From: an uncultured Oscillospiraceae bacterium
GTDB lineage: Bacteria; Bacillota; Clostridia; Oscillospirales; Acutalibacteraceae
Assembly: GCA_948471095.1 (NCBI GenBank)
Contig: CAOKRG010000005.1
Span: 19,701 to 83,700, forward strand
Length of the DNA stretch: 64,000 nt
Direction of reading: 5' to 3'
The notes beneath the pieces are model-generated. The model was given only the letters and a program-made list of their open reading frames with translations, did no database searches and was not told the DNA's origin. Each line of letters starts with the position of its first letter. The first letter of the stretch is position 1. The translations under genes were made by a program, and so were the position numbers. Of this stretch, positions 14,395-22,197 are shown piece after piece.

Positions 14395-14649
14395 TCATTT
14401 TTGATGCTCATATTTTTTCTTCGTGGCCAGGCCCCCGCGGATGTGCCGCTGGGCCTTGTTGACCGCCAGGACGTTTTTCACGTCCCGGTAAAGCCCCCGG
14501 TCGATGTACTTGAGGCGCTGCGATACATCCTTATGTACCGTACTCTTGCTTACCCCAAACTGTTTGGCGGCGCAGCGGACGGTGGCCTTGTTTTCCACAA
14601 TATATTCCCCTAACTTGGTTGCTCGGTCATCGATCACATTGTTTGACAT
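14395..14649 (-). CDS. spoIIID: SpoIIID, sporulation transcription regulator (full-length copy)
   Basis: An 84-residue SpoIIID. The helix-turn-helix KATVRCAAKQFGVSKSTVHK (about residues 21-40) and the C-terminal AQRHIRGGLATKKKY match the family closely. It is a mother-cell DNA-binding regulator made under sigma-E that reshapes the regulon and helps switch on sigK. The ATG at 14647-14649 has AAGAAGGTGCC upstream. Codons 1-39 and the 34 bp before the ATG lie in a 152-bp segment repeated perfectly at 22025-22176. The 5' half of this intact gene was therefore supplied by the recombinase element to its right. Confidence 0.92.
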   Translation of the reverse strand: MSNNVIDDRATKLGEYIVENKATVRCAAKQFGVSKSTVHKDVSQRLKYIDRGLYRDVKNVLAVNKAQRHIRGGLATKKKYEHQK

Positions 14650-14683
14650 ATAGGGCACCTTCTTTCGGTGTTCTATATGTATG
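14532..14683. repeat. Left 152-bp direct repeat (att-type boundary of the spoIIID element)
   Basis: This stretch is identical base for base to 22025-22176. It covers the first 39 codons of spoIIID, its ribosome site and the -10-like CATACATA at 14676-14683. Sequences diverge immediately on both sides. Confidence 0.95.
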
Positions 14684-14704
14684 CGCCGCCCGGGGAGAGT
14701 ATGC
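14676..14704 (-). promoter_or_regulatory. Sigma-E-like promoter of full-length spoIIID (element-supplied -35)
   Basis: On the minus strand GCATACT (14704-14698), a 14-bp spacer and CATACATA (14683-14676) fit the sigma-E pattern KMATATT-N14-CATACAHT with one mismatch in each box. The -10 is inside the direct repeat and the -35 is element sequence. Confidence 0.55.
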
Positions 14705-14733
14705 GGGTGAGTCTGAAGGGGCAAGAGTCTGCT

Positions 14734-15399
14734 TTAAAGCAGGCTCTTGAGCATACCCAGTACCGCCAGCAGATCGTCTGCCGCATCCACCCCGCCGGGT
14801 ACAGCGCGCCCACCGCGGTTGAGCCACAGGGCGGGAATACCGCAATCCGCCGCGCCCTGCACGTCGCTGGTAAGGGAATCGCCAATATGCAGCACATCGC
14901 CCGGGGCAAGGCCCACGGCGGCAAGGGCATATTCGAACAGGGCCCGGTCAGGCTTATACGCCCTGGCGTCCTCACTGGTAAATACGCCGGAGGGCCCTAG
15001 GGCATGGAAACGGATGGCCTCCTGAATATCCGCTCTGTCGATGTTGGATACGATATAAATGGGGAGCGGGCACAGGGCGAAGAACTCTCTCGCATCGGGA
15101 AAAAGGGGCGGTTTCTGCCAGTGGGCGAACATGGCCCGGCTCAATTTATCCACATTGGCAGAGGAGCCAAAATGCCGGATGGTATCGGCCAGTGAGCGAA
15201 TTTCCAGCTCCCGCTGGCTGACATAATTGTCTCCGCAAGCGGAGAGGAACTCCGTTTGAAAGGCGGCCCACCAGTATGCGCCCACCTCTGAAGCGGACGC
15301 GGCCCAGCCGGTATCAGCGATTTCCTGCGAAATCCTTTGAACGATCTCACCGTCCTCATGAACGACGGTGCCGTAAAAATCCAAGAAAACAGCTTGCAT
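14734..15399 (-). CDS. HAD-family hydrolase
   Basis: A 221-residue haloacid-dehalogenase-type phosphatase. All four HAD motifs are visible: LDFYGTVV (nucleophile Asp, with Tyr where many members have a second Asp), IVSNID, the Lys of AYKPDRALF, and HIGDSLTSDVQGA. The cap domain sits between motifs I and II, as in YjjG/haloacid dehalogenase types. The ATG at 15397-15399 follows AGGAGGGACC; a TTG one codon earlier is also possible. It lies between the left repeat and a dead recombinase stub, so it is probably element cargo. The substrate is unknown. Confidence 0.8.
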   Translation of the reverse strand: MQAVFLDFYGTVVHEDGEIVQRISQEIADTGWAASASEVGAYWWAAFQTEFLSACGDNYVSQRELEIRSLADTIRHFGSSANVDKLSRAMFAHWQKPPLFPDAREFFALCPLPIYIVSNIDRADIQEAIRFHALGPSGVFTSEDARAYKPDRALFEYALAAVGLAPGDVLHIGDSLTSDVQGAADCGIPALWLNRGGRAVPGGVDAADDLLAVLGMLKSLL

Positions 15400-15489
15400 C
15401 AAGATTCTGGTCCCTCCTTTTACTCAGCTGGGGGCTGGCACAGTCGTGGCGGCGGGGTAAACCGATGGCCGCAGCTGTTATGCCAGCAT

Positions 15490-15628
15490 GGAGATGTACC
15501 AGCACGTCCCCAGTACTACTCTTGGTGTCTTCCGAGAAAAGCCCCTTCTGGGCCTCCAGGCTGTTGAGCTGGCCTTCCTTATCGGTGGAGACACGGCAGT
15601 AGGCGGCGATATTCACGGGGTACCTCAT
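15490..15628 (-). pseudogene. Serine recombinase N-terminal remnant
   Basis: The first ~45 codons read MRYPVNIAAYCRVSTDKEG and continue to TGDVLVHLHA, a typical resolvase-domain start with the catalytic Ser in CRVST. After about 15490 the similarity stops and the frame reads into unrelated sequence overlapping the HAD gene. It is the broken end of a second, older recombinase, suggesting that one element landed in or next to another. Confidence 0.75.
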
Positions 15629-15726
15629 TAATTGATTTCAGACTTTTTGTTACTACTGAGTTTACCGCACTTCTTTCGAGAAGGCAACAAAAAATTGGCG
15701 GGGCCGGTTCGGCTCCGCCATATAAG

Positions 15727-16074
15727 TTAGGTATTTGTTTCAACAATCGATTTCAACTCTTTGTGGAGCATGGGAATGTCAACTGACACAGTATCCCACA
15801 CGATCTGCATATTGATCCCGGAATAACCGTGCACAATGCGGTTGCGCATACCGTATATCTGCTGCCAGGGGATGGTCTTGATCTGCGCCTTGGTCTCGTC
15901 GCTCAGGGATCCTTTTGCAAGTTCGCCGATCTGCATAAGGTTGAAAACTGTGGCTTCCAAGCGCATAGTATCAGATGAAAAATCTTCCAGTGAGCGGCAG
16001 TCGGCACAGTATTTCATAATGCTTTCGATGTTCTGGAGAATCTTTTTGAGTACCGCAACATCTTTACTGCTCAT
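15727..16074 (-). CDS. hepT: HepT-like ribonuclease toxin (DUF86)
   Basis: A 115-residue HEPN-fold toxin. The RNase motif RX4H is intact in MRNRIVHGY near residues 81-89, and the all-helical body matches the family length. It overlaps the 3' end of the upstream mntA-like gene by 11 nt, so the two are translated together. HepT is an RNase held inactive by AMP groups that its partner MntA adds to a Tyr near the motif; Tyr90 (HGY) is the likely target. Probably an addiction module that stabilises the element. Confidence 0.88.
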   Translation of the reverse strand: MSSKDVAVLKKILQNIESIMKYCADCRSLEDFSSDTMRLEATVFNLMQIGELAKGSLSDETKAQIKTIPWQQIYGMRNRIVHGYSGINMQIVWDTVSVDIPMLHKELKSIVETNT

Positions 16075-16363
16075 AAATTGGTACCCCCGTCTGCTCTATC
16101 TCCATTTCAATTTGAGAGCCTTTTTCAACTTGAGACACATCGATTAGGTCAACCGGTACGCTCAATGTGGATGCAACACCTTCCAGCAGACCAAAGAAAG
16201 CCAGTCCGCGCAAACCGCTGTCCACTAAGATGTCTACATCGCTTCGAAGAGTGGCCTGTCCCTTTGCATAGGAACCGAACAGCACCGCGCGCCGCACGCC
16301 GAATCCCGCGAAAATTGGGTGGAGGATGTTTTCGATTTCGTGGATGGAATAAACCCTTTGCAT
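16064..16363 (-). CDS. mntA: MntA-like nucleotidyltransferase antitoxin
   Basis: A minimal nucleotidyltransferase, 99 residues from the chosen start. The catalytic pattern GSX10DXD is intact in FGSYAKGQATLRSDVDIL. Such proteins AMPylate HepT toxins. I chose the ATG at 16361-16363 because AAAAGGGGG precedes it and because a promoter with -10 at 16385-16390 overlaps the longer start at 16396. It pairs with the overlapping hepT. Confidence 0.88.
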   Translation of the reverse strand: MQRVYSIHEIENILHPIFAGFGVRRAVLFGSYAKGQATLRSDVDILVDSGLRGLAFFGLLEGVASTLSVPVDLIDVSQVEKGSQIEMEIEQTGVPIYEQ

Positions 16364-16384
16364 AGGCCGCCCCCTTTTAAGAGT

Positions 16385-16413
16385 ATTGTACCGCATTATG
16401 AAAGGAAAAGCAA
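16385..16413 (-). promoter_or_regulatory. Promoter of the mntA-hepT pair
   Basis: On the minus strand TTGCTT (16413-16408) and TACAAT (16390-16385) are separated by 17 bp, starting a transcript about 20 nt before the mntA start codon. Confidence 0.55.
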
Positions 16414-16420
16414 GAGGGAA

Positions 16421-16606
16421 TCACATGGCCGGCGTGATGGCTTCCCCCTCTGTTTCTTCTCCAACGGGAACCTTCTGCGCTGCCTGCCGCACCGCGTTTT
16501 CCACCTTTTGGCGGTCTGTTTCGAGGAAAACCTTTAGTATGTAATTTACTGTTAGGCTGTCGGGGTTGGGATTGTGGAAACGGTAATTCAACTTTTTCTT
16601 TTTCAA
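16421..16606 (-). CDS. Small conserved integrative-element protein
   Basis: A 61-residue basic protein starting MKKKKLNYRFHNPNPDSLTV. From memory, short proteins opening with KKLNYRFHNPN recur beside recombinase genes in Clostridia integrative elements; their function is not known. It is predicted to be mainly helical, with a possible helix at residues 18-45. It lies upstream of mntA-hepT on the same strand. Confidence 0.6.
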   Translation of the reverse strand: MKKKKLNYRFHNPNPDSLTVNYILKVFLETDRQKVENAVRQAAQKVPVGEETEGEAITPAM

Positions 16607-16619
16607 ATTATCTTCGCAC

Positions 16620-16790
16620 TAATAGATTGACGGCTCTCCGAAATGAAAATTCCTTGGGGCAGGAGCGTGTCGATGTTGAATCTTCCCCGGCTGGAGCCTC
16701 ATGTCCTGTAGGGTCTCGCCGTCAATGACGGCAAGCTTTTCGATGGGTTATGGGTTTTGGCATATACATCAGTCCTTTCGGCAAAAAAGA
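16620..16790 (-). pseudogene. Possible coding remnant upstream of the small element protein
   Basis: On the minus strand a readable stretch, KLAVIDGETLQDMRLQPGK and onward to a stop at about 16620, has no proper start: the ATG region near 16769 is in another frame. It looks like a frameshifted or truncated small gene. I cannot name it. Confidence 0.3.
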
Positions 16791-16795
16791 AACGC

Positions 16796-16826
16796 TCCCA
16801 GCTTAAAAAAGTGGGAGCAGTATTCA
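16796..16826. terminator. Hairpin, possible terminator in the element
   Basis: CGCTCCCA pairs with TGGGAGC around an AT-rich loop. It lies between the small-protein region and the ParB-like gene and could end the minus-strand recombinase operon transcript. Confidence 0.4.
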
Positions 16827-16830
16827 CATT

Positions 16831-16859
16831 GCGAGCCGGAAAGGATTTTGGTATAATGT
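16831..16859 (+). promoter_or_regulatory. Outward-facing consensus promoter inside the element (+ strand)
   Basis: TTGCGA and TATAAT are spaced by 17 bp. Downstream, GTGGAGAAGG precedes an ATG at 16876 opening a 23-codon ORF that ends at 16947, overlapping the 3' end of the ParB-like gene. It may be the leftover start of a lost gene, or it may make antisense RNA to the recombinase operon. Confidence 0.45.
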
Positions 16860-16921
16860 GGAGAAGGTAAACTCCATGGCACAAGTTAGGTACAAAATCT
16901 ACACGCTGTCTGCAACAGCTC

Positions 16922-17716
16922 TCATGCCCCTGTCATCAGCTTACTGACTGCCAGCCTCCCGACAGGGCTGCGTTTTCTGCCGTTATACTCCTCAAGAAGT
17001 ACTGCCGCCAGCCCGGAGGAGCCGTGACCGCGCTCTTTTGCGTTGCGCATGAGCTGCTTGACCGGGACGGCCCCAAGCTTCTCGGCGAAGATATCCTCAT
17101 TGAGCTCGTCGCCGTATGCAGCCGCAAGCTTCGCTACTGCCGCGAGCATTTTGCCCGAGAGGGAATTTGCCTCCCCCTCCCAGGTGCCAACGCAGAGCCG
17201 CAGCACCCGGTTTAATATCTGGTAGCCGTATTTTTCATAAATGCTCTCCACAGTGGAGATGGCCCAGATGCGGTTTCCACCGGCGCCGTCGCCGATTTTC
17301 AGCCCATAGGATTCCACAAGCGCCAGTATTGCAAGCTGCCGTTCATTGCCAGCCTCCAGGTTTGCCGCAAAAATCTCCAGAGCGCTCAGCGCCCGAACGT
17401 ACCGCATCTGGTTTGCGAAAATATCCGCCTCATGCTGGTACTCCAGGTCGTCATAGACCATACACCACACCGGCGTCTCCCTTGAACCGGAGATTTTTGC
17501 CACGATCTCCACGGTGTGCTGGCCGTTGAAAACATAGTTGACGCCGTCGCGGCGGCTGATTTTGACCGGGTTGACCTGATAAAGGTCAAAGTCGGCGGAA
17601 GCCCGGTCGATCTGTGTCTGGGATAGGGCCCGCTGGTATTTTTGGTTGGACACCAGATTCTTGATGGGGATTAGCTCGAAGTGTACATTGGGAACATATC
17701 TCTGCTGCTGGTCCAT
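16922..17716 (-). CDS. ParB-like-domain protein of the element
   Basis: 264 residues from the chosen ATG. The N-terminal ~85 residues resemble a ParB/sulfiredoxin-type fold: an opening IPIKNLVSNQKYQRALS, then VNPVKISRRDGVNYVFNGQH, where FNGQHT takes the place of the usual DGxHR motif. The rest is helical with no domain I recognise. GGAGGATTGAC precedes the ATG at 17714-17716. It follows another ParB-like gene without a gap, so the pair is co-expressed with the recombinases. A role in partition, DNA binding or nucleotide hydrolysis is inferred only. Confidence 0.6.
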   Translation of the reverse strand: MDQQQRYVPNVHFELIPIKNLVSNQKYQRALSQTQIDRASADFDLYQVNPVKISRRDGVNYVFNGQHTVEIVAKISGSRETPVWCMVYDDLEYQHEADIFANQMRYVRALSALEIFAANLEAGNERQLAILALVESYGLKIGDGAGGNRIWAISTVESIYEKYGYQILNRVLRLCVGTWEGEANSLSGKMLAAVAKLAAAYGDELNEDIFAEKLGAVPVKQLMRNAKERGHGSSGLAAVLLEEYNGRKRSPVGRLAVSKLMTGA

Positions 17717-17717
17717 G

Positions 17718-18539
17718 TCAATCCTCCAATAGCGCCGATAGTGCGGACTCCGCCGCTGTATATAGGTCAAACAGGGCCTGTTCCAACTTCTCCCGGCATA
17801 CCGCCGAGGCCCCGGAAAGGCTGGCCTTCCCCCCGGCACGCTCTAATATATTCACCCACGAGGGTATAGTGAGGGCAAGGCTCATAAGCGGACCGTCCGG
17901 GTCAAAGGCCGGCATATCCTTTACCGTAGGAGCCGGTGGGGCGGGGGTAAGATATCCGCCTTTGCCGGGGATATGCGCCATGGCCCAAAGCTCCCGGGAA
18001 CTCTTATGCTCCAAGCGCGTGAATTTGCGCAGGTGAAGCGCGTACCTACCTGAGAGGACCCCGTCCGCCAGCTCCGGCTCCTTATGCCGCAGAATATCAA
18101 GCTTATTGGCAAAGCTCTTGTACTCGAGCAGGGTAGTGGGGGAGATGCCGAACTTTGCCGATATCCTTCCGGCTAATTCAGCGGGGGGCGCCCCGGGAGA
18201 TTTTGCCCTTGACATCAGGTACAGCTTTCCCAACAGATAATACCGTGCGGCGGTCGCAATATGCCCCCTTCGGAGCTGCCGCTCGCAGGACCAGAGCATA
18301 GCGTCCGTTTTTGATGGGAACACCGTTTCCTCCAGGGCAAATTTGATGCCGTGCCGGGTGTAGATCTCATATCTCGGATATCCCTCAATAATGATCCTGT
18401 GCCATACGGCTACCGGCTCTCTGAGCCTGCCGGTGGTTATATCTTCTTCCAGCGCCTTAAGTTCATCCAGCGGAGGGACCATAGAAATGCATCGGAACTC
18501 CGGGTCTGATTGAAGCGTCCACAAAGCCTTCGCGCTCAT
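17718..18539 (-). CDS. ParB/Spo0J-like protein of the element
   Basis: 273 residues. The N-terminal part (LKALEEDITTGRLREPVAVW, then a YEIYTRHGIKFALEE segment) is like a diverged ParB N-terminal domain, and AGRISAKFGISPTTLLEY near residue 140 is a helix-turn-helix of the ParB type. The first ATG with a ribosome site (GAAGGAGGATATT) is at 18537-18539. Its start overlaps the stop of the upstream gene. No partner ParA is present in the element. Confidence 0.6.
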   Translation of the reverse strand: MSAKALWTLQSDPEFRCISMVPPLDELKALEEDITTGRLREPVAVWHRIIIEGYPRYEIYTRHGIKFALEETVFPSKTDAMLWSCERQLRRGHIATAARYYLLGKLYLMSRAKSPGAPPAELAGRISAKFGISPTTLLEYKSFANKLDILRHKEPELADGVLSGRYALHLRKFTRLEHKSSRELWAMAHIPGKGGYLTPAPPAPTVKDMPAFDPDGPLMSLALTIPSWVNILERAGGKASLSGASAVCREKLEQALFDLYTAAESALSALLED

Positions 18540-19123
18540 TCTATAATATCCTCCTTCTTCGGAATGGCAGGAACCAGACTGGAGTCCCCGCAAACAGAGT
18601 ATACCGTGTAATCTCCTACCAGGTCGGCGGCGATCATCTCCTTATGGGTGCGGTAGTCCGGGCCAAACTGTTTCTGCCAGTCCGCCGGGTACCGGGGAGC
18701 ATTTTTAGTATCCGGGCAGTATGTTTCCGCACAGCTTAGGTCAAATAGTATAGCTTTCTGGGTGCTGTCCAGGACAACTCTGCCCAGTGCCCGATAGCGA
18801 AGCCCCGGGTCCCACCCCATCATAGAGCAGACCATGGCGAAGAACAGTCGGCACGTTATGTGCCTGGGCCGGCGCTTTCCGGCGCGCAGGCACCATAACA
18901 GCGCGTCCCTCTGACCGGCAGGGCAGGGGAAAAGAGCCAGCGACCGCTTTTCCCGGCTTATCATTATCTGCACCGTATCATGCTCGGGGAATATGTCCAG
19001 GCAGGCGGCGTTTACGTAAAAGCAGCAGCGGGAAAAGACCGCCGCGGGCTCCCTGGTATGGGCGAAAAGCTCCCGGCGCGCTACTTGGTACTCGTCCAGA
19101 TTCAAGTTTGGCTCAGTCTCCAT
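18536..19123 (-). CDS. Conserved recombinase-element protein (function unknown)
   Basis: A 195-residue protein starting METEPNLNLDEYQVARRELF. Similar proteins, sometimes labelled integrase without catalytic evidence, sit directly after large serine recombinases in Clostridia elements. Several Cys residues (CLRAG, ITCRLFF, LSCAETYC) might bind metal. I see no tyrosine- or serine-recombinase active site. Its start overlaps the end of the recombinase gene by 11 nt and its stop overlaps the next start, so it is part of one operon. Confidence 0.6.
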   Translation of the reverse strand: METEPNLNLDEYQVARRELFAHTREPAAVFSRCCFYVNAACLDIFPEHDTVQIMISREKRSLALFPCPAGQRDALLWCLRAGKRRPRHITCRLFFAMVCSMMGWDPGLRYRALGRVVLDSTQKAILFDLSCAETYCPDTKNAPRYPADWQKQFGPDYRTHKEMIAADLVGDYTVYSVCGDSSLVPAIPKKEDIIE

Positions 19124-20927
19124 CAGGTTCCTCCAAATCGATCCCCGCCAACTCCTGCCGGATAAATTCCGCCAGTGTTTTGCGGTCCGTAGCCTTTAGG
19201 CCGCTGCCATCGTCCAAAAACCGGCTGGCGCCCTCAAGAGGTGCGGTCTCCTCTGCCCGCGCCAGGTAACAGCCCGGGCCAAAGCTCCCGGCCCGGGCGG
19301 CAGGAACGGCCCTCACCCAGCCCCGGTAGGGTGTGAGGGGCCGGCCGGCGGGACAGGCTGTTTTCGGCAGGAACGCCTGGGCGTCCGCCGCCTCACATAG
19401 AAAGACCAATTTATCGTCTGATTGGTATGGAGTGGGGATTATGCGGTAAAAATTGTCCGTGTCCCAGCCGAATATTTTGAAAAGCGTCCCGCCAAAAGCA
19501 GCGGACGGTATGGTCCGGGGACGGTATATTCCGCCTGAGCGCTTGGCGCAGACTACACCGCAGCGGTTTCCCGGTTCAGCCGGGCGCAGGGCGACACGCT
19601 TGCCGATAGGGTCCAGGAGCAGCTCAATGCGGTCATGCCCTCCTAGGCGCAGGATAAGCCGTGAGCTTAGGCTCAGGGATTTTTCCCGGAATGATACGAA
19701 TCCCATAAGCGGGGTGTCATATAGCTCAGGCCGCACAGTCTGAAATCCGCGAAGGTCCAGGTCTCCGGGGCGGAGCTCAATTTGCATAGGCGATGCGCTG
19801 TTTCCGCCAACGCTCTGGGCGGCATTCATATATTCAGCCTCACCGAACCCCGCCCAGCGAGGATGAACAACGACAAAACCTTTGAGCAGGCCCTCCTCTA
19901 CTACCCTCAGCCGGGGCAGAATCTCGCGGCCTCGGAACCTGGCATTGTCCAGCATACGCTGTACGGCGGTAAAGTCGGAGGGTGACACGATGGGCTCATG
20001 ATGCTCTAGATACCTGCTGCGGGGGCGTTCGCCGCGGTTCTTGACTGAGCGGTGGTCCCGGAAATCGGGCGTGAAGGTCTTGCGGGTATGTACCTGACCG
20101 CAGTGCCGTTCATTTCTCAGAATGCCCACAATACTGTTTGCCGTCCACTTGACGTTCCCCAGATACGACTTACGGCCCAGCGCGTTAAACGTCTCCGCAA
20201 TTTGGCGGGTGGAGTAACCATAAAGGTACATAAAAAACGCCAGCTTTACTGTGGGGGCTTCTTCCGGGTTGATAATCAGGCCGCCCTCCTCATCGTGCCG
20301 GTACCCCAGCAGTTCCGGGGTCAGGGGCAGGCCGTGGTCCAGGCGCATACGCAGAGATGCCTCCATGCTCCGGCTGCGAGTATGAGACTCCTCCTCCGCC
20401 ATTATGGCAAAAAAGCTTAAGGGCATGGATTTTTCATCGTTGAGAGAAAATATGCTTTCCGATTCAAAGAACACTCCTACTGGCGGGGATAGCCCCTTTA
20501 GGTCCAGGACGATGCTGATGCAGAGCACCACGTTCCTGGCAAAGCGGGAGACGCTTTTGGTGATGATCAGGTCCAGCTTCCCCGCCCGGCAGTCGGCAAG
20601 CATTTGATGAAAACCGTCCCGGTGGCGGTCGGTGGTGCCGGAGGCCCCTTCGTCGGAGTAGATGCCGCATAGGATCCAGTTAGGGTGCCGGACCACATAT
20701 TCCTCGTAATATTTCTTTTGCAGCTCATAGGAGCTTGTCTGCTGTACGCTGCCTGTGGAGACCCGGGCATAGACAGCCACACGCACCGGAATATCGCCGC
20801 CAAAATAATCCACGGCGGGATTCTCCGGGGTGTACTCGAAATTGCCGGTTTGCGCCTGGCTTTGTATCCGCCGCCGCATCCTGCGTTTCTGCATCTCCTT
20901 AAGGTCGTGCTTATACCGGTCAACCAT
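19113..20927 (-). CDS. Large serine recombinase
   Basis: 604 residues from the chosen ATG. The resolvase domain has the catalytic Ser in VYARVSTGS (about residue 47) and the conserved arginines in DRHRDGF and KSVSRFARN. A recombinase domain follows (about 190-300) with a zinc-ribbon-like and DNA-binding C-terminal part. This is the expected integrase/excisionase of the element. The ATG at 20925-20927 lies just after the end of the upstream resolvase-like gene, which it overlaps by 8 nt; the longer ORF to 21215 only reads antiparallel to that gene in another frame. Confidence 0.9.
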   Translation of the reverse strand: MVDRYKHDLKEMQKRRMRRRIQSQAQTGNFEYTPENPAVDYFGGDIPVRVAVYARVSTGSVQQTSSYELQKKYYEEYVVRHPNWILCGIYSDEGASGTTDRHRDGFHQMLADCRAGKLDLIITKSVSRFARNVVLCISIVLDLKGLSPPVGVFFESESIFSLNDEKSMPLSFFAIMAEEESHTRSRSMEASLRMRLDHGLPLTPELLGYRHDEEGGLIINPEEAPTVKLAFFMYLYGYSTRQIAETFNALGRKSYLGNVKWTANSIVGILRNERHCGQVHTRKTFTPDFRDHRSVKNRGERPRSRYLEHHEPIVSPSDFTAVQRMLDNARFRGREILPRLRVVEEGLLKGFVVVHPRWAGFGEAEYMNAAQSVGGNSASPMQIELRPGDLDLRGFQTVRPELYDTPLMGFVSFREKSLSLSSRLILRLGGHDRIELLLDPIGKRVALRPAEPGNRCGVVCAKRSGGIYRPRTIPSAAFGGTLFKIFGWDTDNFYRIIPTPYQSDDKLVFLCEAADAQAFLPKTACPAGRPLTPYRGWVRAVPAARAGSFGPGCYLARAEETAPLEGASRFLDDGSGLKATDRKTLAEFIRQELAGIDLEEPDGD

Positions 20928-21456
20928 CGGTGCCCCCCGGCGGCAGGAAGGCCGTGTCGCGAAGGTCCTCCAGGTAGTATGATGCCAGGGTGAAAATATC
21001 CTCGGAGATGAAATAGATACCCACGGGCGGCGTTCTGGCGGCAAGCAGCTGGGCGCATAAGGACATCTCCATGGGATCGCTGGACACATTTGAAATTTTT
21101 TGCGTAAGGATAAGGCTGACCCTGCCCGCCATGCAGTCCTCCAAAAGCCGCGCCCATTCCGGGGAGGAGGACATTTTTGGCGCGGATGAGCCATAGTCCA
21201 CATAATAGCCGGCAAGCTTCCATTTTGGGCACATGGCTATAGACGCGGCAAACTGGCTTTTATGCTTTTCCAGATAGTCATCATACTTGGTCTGGTTAAA
21301 ATAACGGATGTACACACCAATACAAAAGGGCTTCTCCGGGTCAGGCCGTTCCCTGTTAAGGCTGTTCAGCCACATACGGTGCATAGCCAGCTTTTTTGAC
21401 ATACTGGACCGGGACTGTTCCGGCGGGAGCAGTGACGAGAAGATGTTGTTATCCAA
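20920..21456 (-). CDS. Resolvase-like protein lacking the catalytic serine
   Basis: 178 residues that follow the resolvase N-terminal fold: IGVYIRYFNQTKYDDYLEKH matches the position of YARVST...Q, and LILTQKISNVSS matches LIITKSVSRFAR. The catalytic Ser and the SRFAR arginine are both missing, and no DNA-binding domain follows. It cannot cleave DNA by the usual mechanism. Start TTG at 21456 with GGACGGAGGTAAC. As the gene directly before the active recombinase, overlapping it by 8 nt, it may modulate the recombinase, for example as a directionality factor or regulatory subunit; that is inference. Confidence 0.7.
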   Translation of the reverse strand: MDNNIFSSLLPPEQSRSSMSKKLAMHRMWLNSLNRERPDPEKPFCIGVYIRYFNQTKYDDYLEKHKSQFAASIAMCPKWKLAGYYVDYGSSAPKMSSSPEWARLLEDCMAGRVSLILTQKISNVSSDPMEMSLCAQLLAARTPPVGIYFISEDIFTLASYYLEDLRDTAFLPPGGTDG

Positions 21457-21490
21457 GCTGTTACCTCCGTCCTATGTCGATTTACACTAC

Positions 21491-21500
21491 CTATTATACA
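21491..21500 (-). promoter_or_regulatory. -10 region of the recombinase operon
   Basis: On the minus strand TATAAT lies about 40 bp before the TTG start of the resolvase-like gene; the -35 is weak. It faces away from the HTH repressor promoter, so the repressor could cover both. Confidence 0.45.
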
Positions 21501-21522
21501 GCTGCTAAGCTTGAAATAAAAT

Positions 21523-21564
21523 GAACCGGCGGTTTGATATTTATCAACTGCCGGTTCGTTTTTT
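21523..21564 (+). terminator. Hairpin with T run between the divergent recombinase and repressor genes
   Basis: GAACCGGC pairs with GCCGGTTC around a loop that itself contains a smaller inverted repeat (TTGATATTTATCAA), followed by GTTTTTT. It lies just before the repressor -10 (TATAAT at 21572-21577). It may be a terminator, or the inner palindrome may be an operator. Confidence 0.5.
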
Positions 21565-21610
21565 ATATCGGCTATAATGAAAACCTATATTTTTCAGGAG
21601 GTTTCAGAAT

Positions 21611-21934
21611 ATGCAAAAAGAAGAAATCGGTATGCGGGTGCGTAATCTGCGCAGGGAGAAGCGGCTTACCCAGGAACAGCTTGCGGAGCGGCTGGACTGC
21701 TCCGTGCAGTTTTTGAGCCTGGTGGAGAGGGGGCAGCGTGGAATGAGCCTTGGGATGTTCTGCCTGTGCATAGAGGCCCTGTGCGTCTCGGCGGACGAGC
21801 TGCTGGGAAAGATCGCGGTATGTGAAAAGCAGGAGAGGGAGGAGATGCTGCTGAAGGGGTGCAGCGAGCTTGAAAGGAAAATCATCTCGGATGTGGCGGA
21901 GGTGATAAAGCGGGATCTGAGAGAAAAGAGGTGA
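21611..21934 (+). CDS. XRE-family HTH regulator of the element
   Basis: A 107-residue protein with a Cro/CI-type HTH at about residues 7-62: IGMRVRNLRREKRLTQEQLA, then QFLSLVERGQRGMS. The C-terminal helix (80-105) is charged and may dimerise. ATG at 21611 with CAGGAGG. It is divergent from the recombinase operon, the classic arrangement for the repressor that keeps an integrated element silent. Confidence 0.82.
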   Translation: MQKEEIGMRVRNLRREKRLTQEQLAERLDCSVQFLSLVERGQRGMSLGMFCLCIEALCVSADELLGKIAVCEKQEREEMLLKGCSELERKIISDVAEVIKRDLREKR

Positions 21935-21959
21935 CGTTAGCCTAAACGGGCAGGAACAC

Positions 21960-22142
21960 TTACCGTGGACCTGCCTGTTTTCTATTGTATAAACCAGATA
22001 AGCCGCTTTGCTTTGTCACTTCCATATGTACCGTACTCTTGCTTACCCCAAACTGTTTGGCGGCGCAGCGGACGGTGGCCTTGTTTTCCACAATATATTC
22101 CCCTAACTTGGTTGCTCGGTCATCGATCACATTGTTTGACAT
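21960..22142 (-). pseudogene. Truncated spoIIID copy at the right element boundary
   Basis: The ATG at 22140-22142 opens with codons 1-39 of spoIIID, identical to the left copy, then runs into element sequence (MEVTKQSGLSGLYNRKQAGPR) and stops at 21960, for 60 residues. The first HTH helices are present but the basic C-terminus is gone. This copy keeps the gene's original upstream flank, so it would be expressed when spoIIID normally is. It is a remnant and could in theory compete with the intact protein. Confidence 0.85.
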
Positions 22143-22176
22143 ATAGGGCACCTTCTTTCGGTGTTCTATATGTATG
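22025..22176. repeat. Right 152-bp direct repeat (att-type boundary of the spoIIID element)
   Basis: Perfect copy of 14532-14683. Beyond 22176 lies the presumed original upstream flank of spoIIID. Confidence 0.95.
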
Positions 22177-22197
22177 TGGAAAAGAGGGGAGATATGT
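22169..22197 (-). promoter_or_regulatory. Presumed native sigma-E-like promoter of spoIIID
   Basis: On the minus strand ACATATC (22197-22191), 14 bp and CATACATA (22176-22169) fit the sigma-E pattern. The spacing is the same as at the left copy, but the -35 sequence is different. It now drives the truncated copy. Confidence 0.55.

Follow-up and report, generated by a model that had tools for sequence, protein, structure and literature searches.

A probable relic of an intervening element beside a whole spoIIID gene, and split spoIIID genes in related gut Clostridia

The window described here is a stretch of 64,000 nucleotides from an uncultured Oscillospiraceae bacterium (assembly GCA_948471095.1, contig CAOKRG010000005.1), and its subject is the interval at 14532-22176, which lies between two copies of the first half of the sporulation gene spoIIID. 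This interval is probably the disarmed relic of an element that once interrupted spoIIID. As read from the sequences, the elements of relatives break the gene, and their order is 5′ half, attR, element, a small open reading frame (ORF), a large serine recombinase here called LSR1, attL and 3′ half. The window has attR, the orphan 5′ half and part of the cargo, and it lacks attL as well as LSR1 after about residue 52; a promoter with codons 1-39 is joined precisely to the 3′ half, so that spoIIID is whole. If the interval is such a relic, spoIIID has been freed from its dependence on excision and the element has become fixed.

There is also a broader proposal, to which we lean with less assurance: spoIIID would be a widespread and unreported target of gene-splitting elements in gut Clostridia, these would be excised only in the mother cell by LSR1, a dedicated recombinase family, and a small SigE-controlled partner, and hosts would have escaped from them repeatedly, the window being one such escape. 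Should this hold, SpoIIID, which acts before SigK, would be made only after a rearrangement of the genome, and the route of escape would be a second promoter and first half placed before the spoIIID 3′ half, with the integrase destroyed.

The repeat and the two copies of spoIIID

Positions 14532-14683 and 22025-22176 match exactly over 152 bp, with mismatched flanking bases on both sides and a spacing of 7493 bp; compared beyond the exact stretch, the copies agree at 157 of 159 positions. The features at the two ends of the interval are as follows.

14395-14649, minus (start 14649): spoIIID, complete frame of 84 amino acids (Pfam SpoIIID, E 1.1e-36)
14515-14552, minus: rebuilt attB-type site in spoIIID, with the putative crossover CA (gene strand) at 14534-14535
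14532-14683, minus: left 152-bp copy, with codons 1-39, leader and -10 (comparison of the copies)
14698-14704, minus: SigE-like -35 of the intact gene, GCATACT, 14 bp from the -10 CATACATA (14676-14683)
22001-22045, minus: attR, made of the spoIIID arm, CA (22027-22028) and the element arm, the latter agreeing with the family consensus at 19/26 positions
22025-22176, minus: right 152-bp copy, the orphan 5′ half of spoIIID (comparison of the copies)
22191-22197, minus: SigE-like -35 of the orphan copy, ACATATC, 14 bp from the orphan -10 CATACATA

An exact coding repeat of 152 bp is far beyond chance, and the window by itself is silent on its origin. The preliminary description of this DNA had reported an identity that ends abruptly, had read its content as codons 1-39, leader and -10 of spoIIID, and had seen the left copy continuing into the remainder of the gene and the right copy running into the element and stopping; it had also listed in the interval a large serine recombinase (at 19113-20927), a repressor (of Xre type, at 21611-21934) and a toxin-antitoxin pair (HepT/MntA, at 15727-16366). 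All of this stands: the neighbouring bases differ on both sides, the Pfam match identifies the gene, a SigE-like -10 lies inside both copies, the left copy opens the 84-residue frame, and the right copy continues into a short chimeric frame, MSNN...STVHMEVTKQ.... What the description had missed are a stump of LSR1, a small conserved ORF and the SigE-like -35 elements just beyond the repeat at both copies. With what we take to be the -35/-10 motif of SigE present at each of them, both copies look like real spoIIID promoters.

In the window, spoIIID is not split, and only the orphan 5′ half stands at the right end; there is an attR but no attL, the left junction being a rebuilt attB. Nor is there a complete recombinase of the family, LSR1 being cut and the intact LSR2 being of another type. 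A search of the window's genome (G000), whose assembly is 86.6% complete, gave no further LSR1 match at E<=1e-60. Because most of LSR1 and attL are missing and no other LSR1 was found, the element looks immobile, and site-specific excision of a 7.49-kb circle, as the preliminary description had envisaged, is not to be expected.

Split, empty and half genes in relatives

The 84-residue SpoIIID was searched in 60 relatives, which hold the gene either intact or in two pieces that lie kilobases from each other and cover about residues 1-44 and 35-83. In G023, G035 and G044 both halves lie apart on a single contig, so that the split is not an assembly fault there. Within the genus (29 genomes, the window's included), spoIIID is intact in 21 and split in six (G001, G005, G010, G015, G018 and G023, the halves of G015 being on two contigs), while G025 has a fragment at a contig edge and the window's genome is the odd one. 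It had been stated beforehand that the idea of an inserted element would fail if relatives offered no empty site; the 21 genomes with one intact spoIIID offer it.

An order-wide sample of 395 genomes gave a SpoIIID match in 357, and 25 genomes with a weak match or none were re-examined. Taken with the search of the 60 relatives, both halves were found apart in 21/395 genomes (G001, G010, G044, G050, G096, G107, G114, G122, G154, G173, G200, G234, G265, G312, G325, G347, G380, G391, G412, G416 and G423). They are on different contigs in G114, G200, G380, G391, G416 and G423, and for G423 the 3′ half gave a weak match, at 43% identity. G296, where the match is at a contig edge, and G053, G054, G105 and G208, each with a single half only, were left out of this count.

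A scan of the genome collection with the attR pattern returned 19 loci, among whose records are Lachnospiraceae, Acetatifactor, Fusicatenibacter and Fournierella. In 18 of them the pattern marks the point where a spoIIID 5′ half stops; the 19th (L075 in G437, an Acetatifactor record) has an intact spoIIID with an attR-like scar at 1259-1284, about 250 bp upstream. When 14 of the genomes with the pattern were searched whole, eight had both halves apart, one was restored (G435), one had the scar (G437), three had the 5′ half only and one had fragments. Judged from the order-wide count and this one, the elements of relatives really do split spoIIID, at or near His codon 39.

A side observation concerns contig ends: contigs stop about 100 bp from a spoIIID half at L097 and L099 (the 3′ halves of G200 and G423) and at L116 (the 5′ half of G200), and such ends could result where excised and integrated forms are present together.

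Attachment sites and the LSR1 recombinase

The break falls at the His39 codon in nearly all cases. In the genus, attL is GACAACCATACATAAGGA and attR is AGTACGGTACATATGGA, and the whole gene of the window reads AGTACGGTACATAAGGAT. The common core of attL and attR is about 6 bp, TACATA; the 152-bp repeat, whose length the preliminary description had found unusual for a serine integrase, is not that core. Around a CA dinucleotide the arms of the element are arranged as a dyad, with a mean of 17.1/26 positions in 19 genomes (shuffled mean 6.8/26, highest shuffled mean 8.7), as one would expect where a serine integrase acts. G369 and G423 have in common a different orphan junction, two codons further on, and this is perhaps a second type of element.

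LSR1 is a large serine recombinase of ~515 amino acids with Resolvase, Recombinase and zinc-ribbon domains. It reaches the 3′ half, or comes within about 70 bp of it, in 23 of the 27 loci that have a 3′ half, a count that includes one locus cut by the contig start. The other four are G096, where a related gene stands at the attR end, G380, where LSR1 is 12 kb off on the same contig, and G200 and G423, where contig ends are close by. At >=91% identity it is present in exactly the six split genomes among the 29 of the genus, and in all 18 order genomes with LSR1 at >=50% identity spoIIID is split or half. At E<=1e-100, LSR1 was found in 27/395 order genomes, a scan in which at most three candidates were scored per genome; nine of these have it at 41-49% identity, two with spoIIID split and seven with a single strong spoIIID match. 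In the attR-pattern set, LSR1 abuts the 3′ half in 6/8 split genomes.

How LSR1 is expressed is a separate matter. A SigA-like promoter was seen at 9/23 copies versus 5.7 in shuffles, a weak excess, and constitutive expression is not claimed on it. A GTAAC-type motif, GTAACAAAACG/GTAACAGAACG, which resembles the attR arm, lies near the LSR1 start in 13/23 cases (shuffle mean 1.1), the motif having been picked after inspection; it is seen upstream of LSR1 in split loci such as L039, L048 and L090, and LSR1 may bind its own promoter.

A candidate partner of LSR1

In 20/22 loci with a full-length LSR1, a small ORF bearing the KLNYRFHNPNP motif stands upstream of that gene at a distance of up to about 1.2 kb, the weakest cases being recognised by the short motif; none is visible in L085 and L088. 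In the genus, HepT/MntA is placed between the small ORF and LSR1. Neither Pfam nor NCBIfam gave the small ORF a match of weight. A SigE-like -10 precedes it in 17/20 cases (shuffle mean 2.4, highest of 1000 shuffles 7), with a pattern that was picked after looking at the sequences and with a stricter SigE-type pattern giving 0/20. The same -10 is found before the spoIIID 5′ half in 21/27 loci and before LSR1 in 1/22. On the model of the C. difficile skin, we propose that the product of the small ORF acts as a directionality factor. The window's own small ORF is without the SigE-like -10.

The restored state in other genomes

The window does not stand alone. In G286, G233, G369 and G435, too, spoIIID is intact and is accompanied by an orphan 5′ half with an attR-like junction at its end. 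In G286 both copies are on one 260-kb contig, 6.5 kb apart and in the same order as in the window, and LSR1 is cut after residue 53, beside the restored promoter. In G435 (Candidatus Scybalocola faecigallinarum) a single contig holds both copies at a distance of 4.9 kb; LSR1 has no match between them, and none in that genome at E<=1e-80. Beside the restored gene there is a cut small ORF in G233 and a fragment of a large serine recombinase in G369. G233, G286 and G369 are not among the 27 order genomes with LSR1 at E<=1e-100. The two copies agree at 136/148 positions in G286, 236/256 in G233, 194/196 in G369 and 156/181 in G435. Left out of the restored count are G046, with two long spoIIID matches on different contigs, and G437 (L075), with the intact gene and scar only.

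How the window may have arisen

How could a broken gene become whole beside the element that broke it? In relatives, LSR1 with the product of the small ORF would recombine attL with attR in the sporulating mother cell, freeing the element and rebuilding spoIIID, as happens with skin for sigK; the promoter patterns described above give a hint of this. In the ancestry of the window, a split chromosome broken inside LSR1 may have recombined with an intact or excised copy, the donor being a sister chromosome, a close strain, or an imprecisely excised circle that integrated. One step would give the order 5′ half, attR, broken element, promoter, 5′ half, 3′ half, which would fit all five genomes. 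For the window an extra step is needed, because its two upstream sides have no significant similarity: the intact copy would have come from another strain, or one side would have changed afterwards. The perfect 152 bp point to gene conversion, which may have acted between the two 5′ copies.

Several observations weigh against this relic interpretation. The upstream sides of the window's copies, one with the HAD gene and the other with GNAT genes, lack significant similarity, so that a simple sister-chromosome event within one strain would need a second change; moreover, HAD adjoins spoIIID in 0/2 of the other genus genomes that have it. LSR2 is intact, and some other recombination may have taken place. 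In two distant restored loci, those of the window (15464-15628) and of G286 (L132, 10055-10213), LSR1 breaks off at almost identical codons (52 and 53, at GGCAT), and a random break would not predict this. Finally, the copies of G233 and of G369 lie on separate contigs.

The other explanations fare worse. One is an effect of assembly: the chromosome would have one intact spoIIID, with the 5′ half on a separate 7.49-kb circle, or sequences of several strains would have been merged at the repeat. The 152 bp are near short-read length, the genome is an 83-contig assembly, and an exact repeat can be resolved in two ways; nevertheless, this explanation is unlikely, given that the LSR1 stump is divergent and does not keep register with relatives, so that its junction is no fresh chimaera, and that both window copies have a SigE-like -35. 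In G286 and G435 a single contig shows this order as well, and their copies are only 92% and 86% alike, which makes a collapsed repeat unlikely in those genomes.

Another explanation, that of the preliminary description, is that a 5′ copy of spoIIID belongs to the element by design, each integration leaving the gene whole. Elements that rebuild the end of a tRNA gene or orfX are the natural comparison, and the intact gene beside an orphan 5′ half in the window and in four more genomes would agree with it. Yet no 5′ copy of spoIIID was seen next to a full-length LSR1 in the relatives' loci, where that recombinase reaches the 3′ half or to within about 70 bp; thus the active end carries no restoring part of the gene. 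Moreover, what stands beside the restored gene is a cut LSR1 (G000 and G286), a cut small ORF (G233), a recombinase fragment (G369) or nothing (G435). Such a design is quite improbable. The description was right that the frame is made whole through a second 5′ copy; that copy is not seen as part of an integration strategy, because the form with an intact recombinase splits spoIIID and shows none at its LSR1 end.

A plain local duplication of the 5′ end of spoIIID, with no element involved, would give two identical direct copies but is hardly credible, as the right copy stops at the crossover of the family and passes into the family's attR arm, and the interval matches the elements of split relatives.

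The remaining element and its cargo

The relic interpretation leaves within the interval a set of genes; over 15521-16609, the sequence shares 81-82% identity with elements from four split relatives (L038-L041).

14734-15402, minus: HAD-type hydrolase gene, between the restored spoIIID and the LSR1 stump (Pfam)
15464-15628, minus: LSR1 stump, residues 1 to about 52, with the remainder and attL missing (sequence comparison)
15727-16074, minus: HepT-like toxin (domain models)
16064-16366, minus: MntA-like antitoxin (domain models)
16421-16606, minus: small ORF with the KLNYRFHNPNP motif, candidate directionality factor
16922-17716, minus: DUF6551 protein, cargo (Pfam)
17718-18539, minus: cargo ORF, no assigned family (Pfam scan)
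18536-19123, minus: ORF, no assigned family, with related ORFs in the L038-L041 elements (comparison with relatives)
19113-20927, minus: LSR2, second large serine recombinase (Pfam); the L038-L041 elements hold one at about 35% identity
20920-21456, minus: resolvase-domain protein (below the Pfam cut-off)
21611-21934, plus: Xre-type repressor (Pfam)

A prophage was considered and rejected: there are no phage structural or packaging genes among the 10 window proteins scanned with Pfam, and the attP and attR patterns, scanned over viral contigs, gave 0 matches each. A tRNA gene as target was likewise set aside, there being no tRNA gene in the window. As for the neighbours, the HAD gene is present at E<=1e-20 in 3/29 genus genomes, and the two other carriers (57-58% identity) have it and spoIIID on separate contigs, so HAD is not taken as a usual neighbour of spoIIID. 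The two GNAT genes beyond the orphan copy have no match in 19 relatives' loci, and the acyl-CoA synthetase there was not found close to spoIIID in 11 relatives searched. Elsewhere in the window's genome, contig C35 (20358-24021) has three consecutive large serine recombinase genes.

Comparison with known systems

Among spore formers, developmental rearrangement of DNA has been described for a handful of genes. With a widespread spoIIID family, a switch of this type would act one step earlier in the cascade of the mother cell, and in gut lineages that have been little studied; annotation could overlook spoIIID there. Because split, empty and restored loci occur side by side, one can test how such an element is tamed by its host and how the host gets free of it.

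The relatives' elements resemble known intervening elements on two points: the gene is split (21/395 genomes, with G023, G035 and G044 on single contigs), and the recombinase lies by an att site (LSR1 at the 3′ half in 23/27 loci, with the att dyad). This supports the idea that spoIIID is the site of a recombinase element that belongs with skin and the other elements interrupting sporulation genes. SCC-type elements at orfX leave their target gene whole, and the window, too, has a whole gene beside the element; LSR1 also scores to the CcrB/CcrC models, far under their cut-offs. Unlike them, the spoIIID family breaks its gene in the form with an intact recombinase.

The closest parallel is the C. 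difficile skin in sigK, where the large serine recombinase CD1231 is reported to be constitutively expressed and the recombination directionality factor CD1234 to be controlled by SigE and SpoIIID (PMC5025042). Both systems combine a large serine recombinase with attL and attR within a mother-cell sporulation gene, and to the small partner protein of skin there corresponds a candidate one here. They differ in that skin targets sigK, while excision from spoIIID is proposed here and the window copy would be disarmed, its gene whole; with spoIIID itself as the target, the small partner could not require SpoIIID. The gin element in gerE of Bacillus cereus ATCC10987, which was shown to be excised during sporulation (PMC5595907), likewise has non-phage cargo and several serine recombinases and splits a gene for a small sporulation transcription factor; the gene and the hosts are others. 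The yin element in yabG of Clostridium botulinum is a recombinase-bearing intervening element of a sporulation gene whose integrated and excised forms occur together in culture (PMC10747680); it concerns another gene and one isolate, and the spoIIID elements are found here in many genera. The targets named in passages of PMC5595907, PMC6957869, PMC10747680, PMC3533761 and PMC5025042 are other genes than spoIIID. In agreement with the claim that no spoIIID element had been described, no published report of one was found in the literature searched, whose coverage excludes preprints and most subscription papers. The kind of element is therefore a known one, and its target spoIIID, the breadth of its occurrence and the recurring restored state appear to be new.

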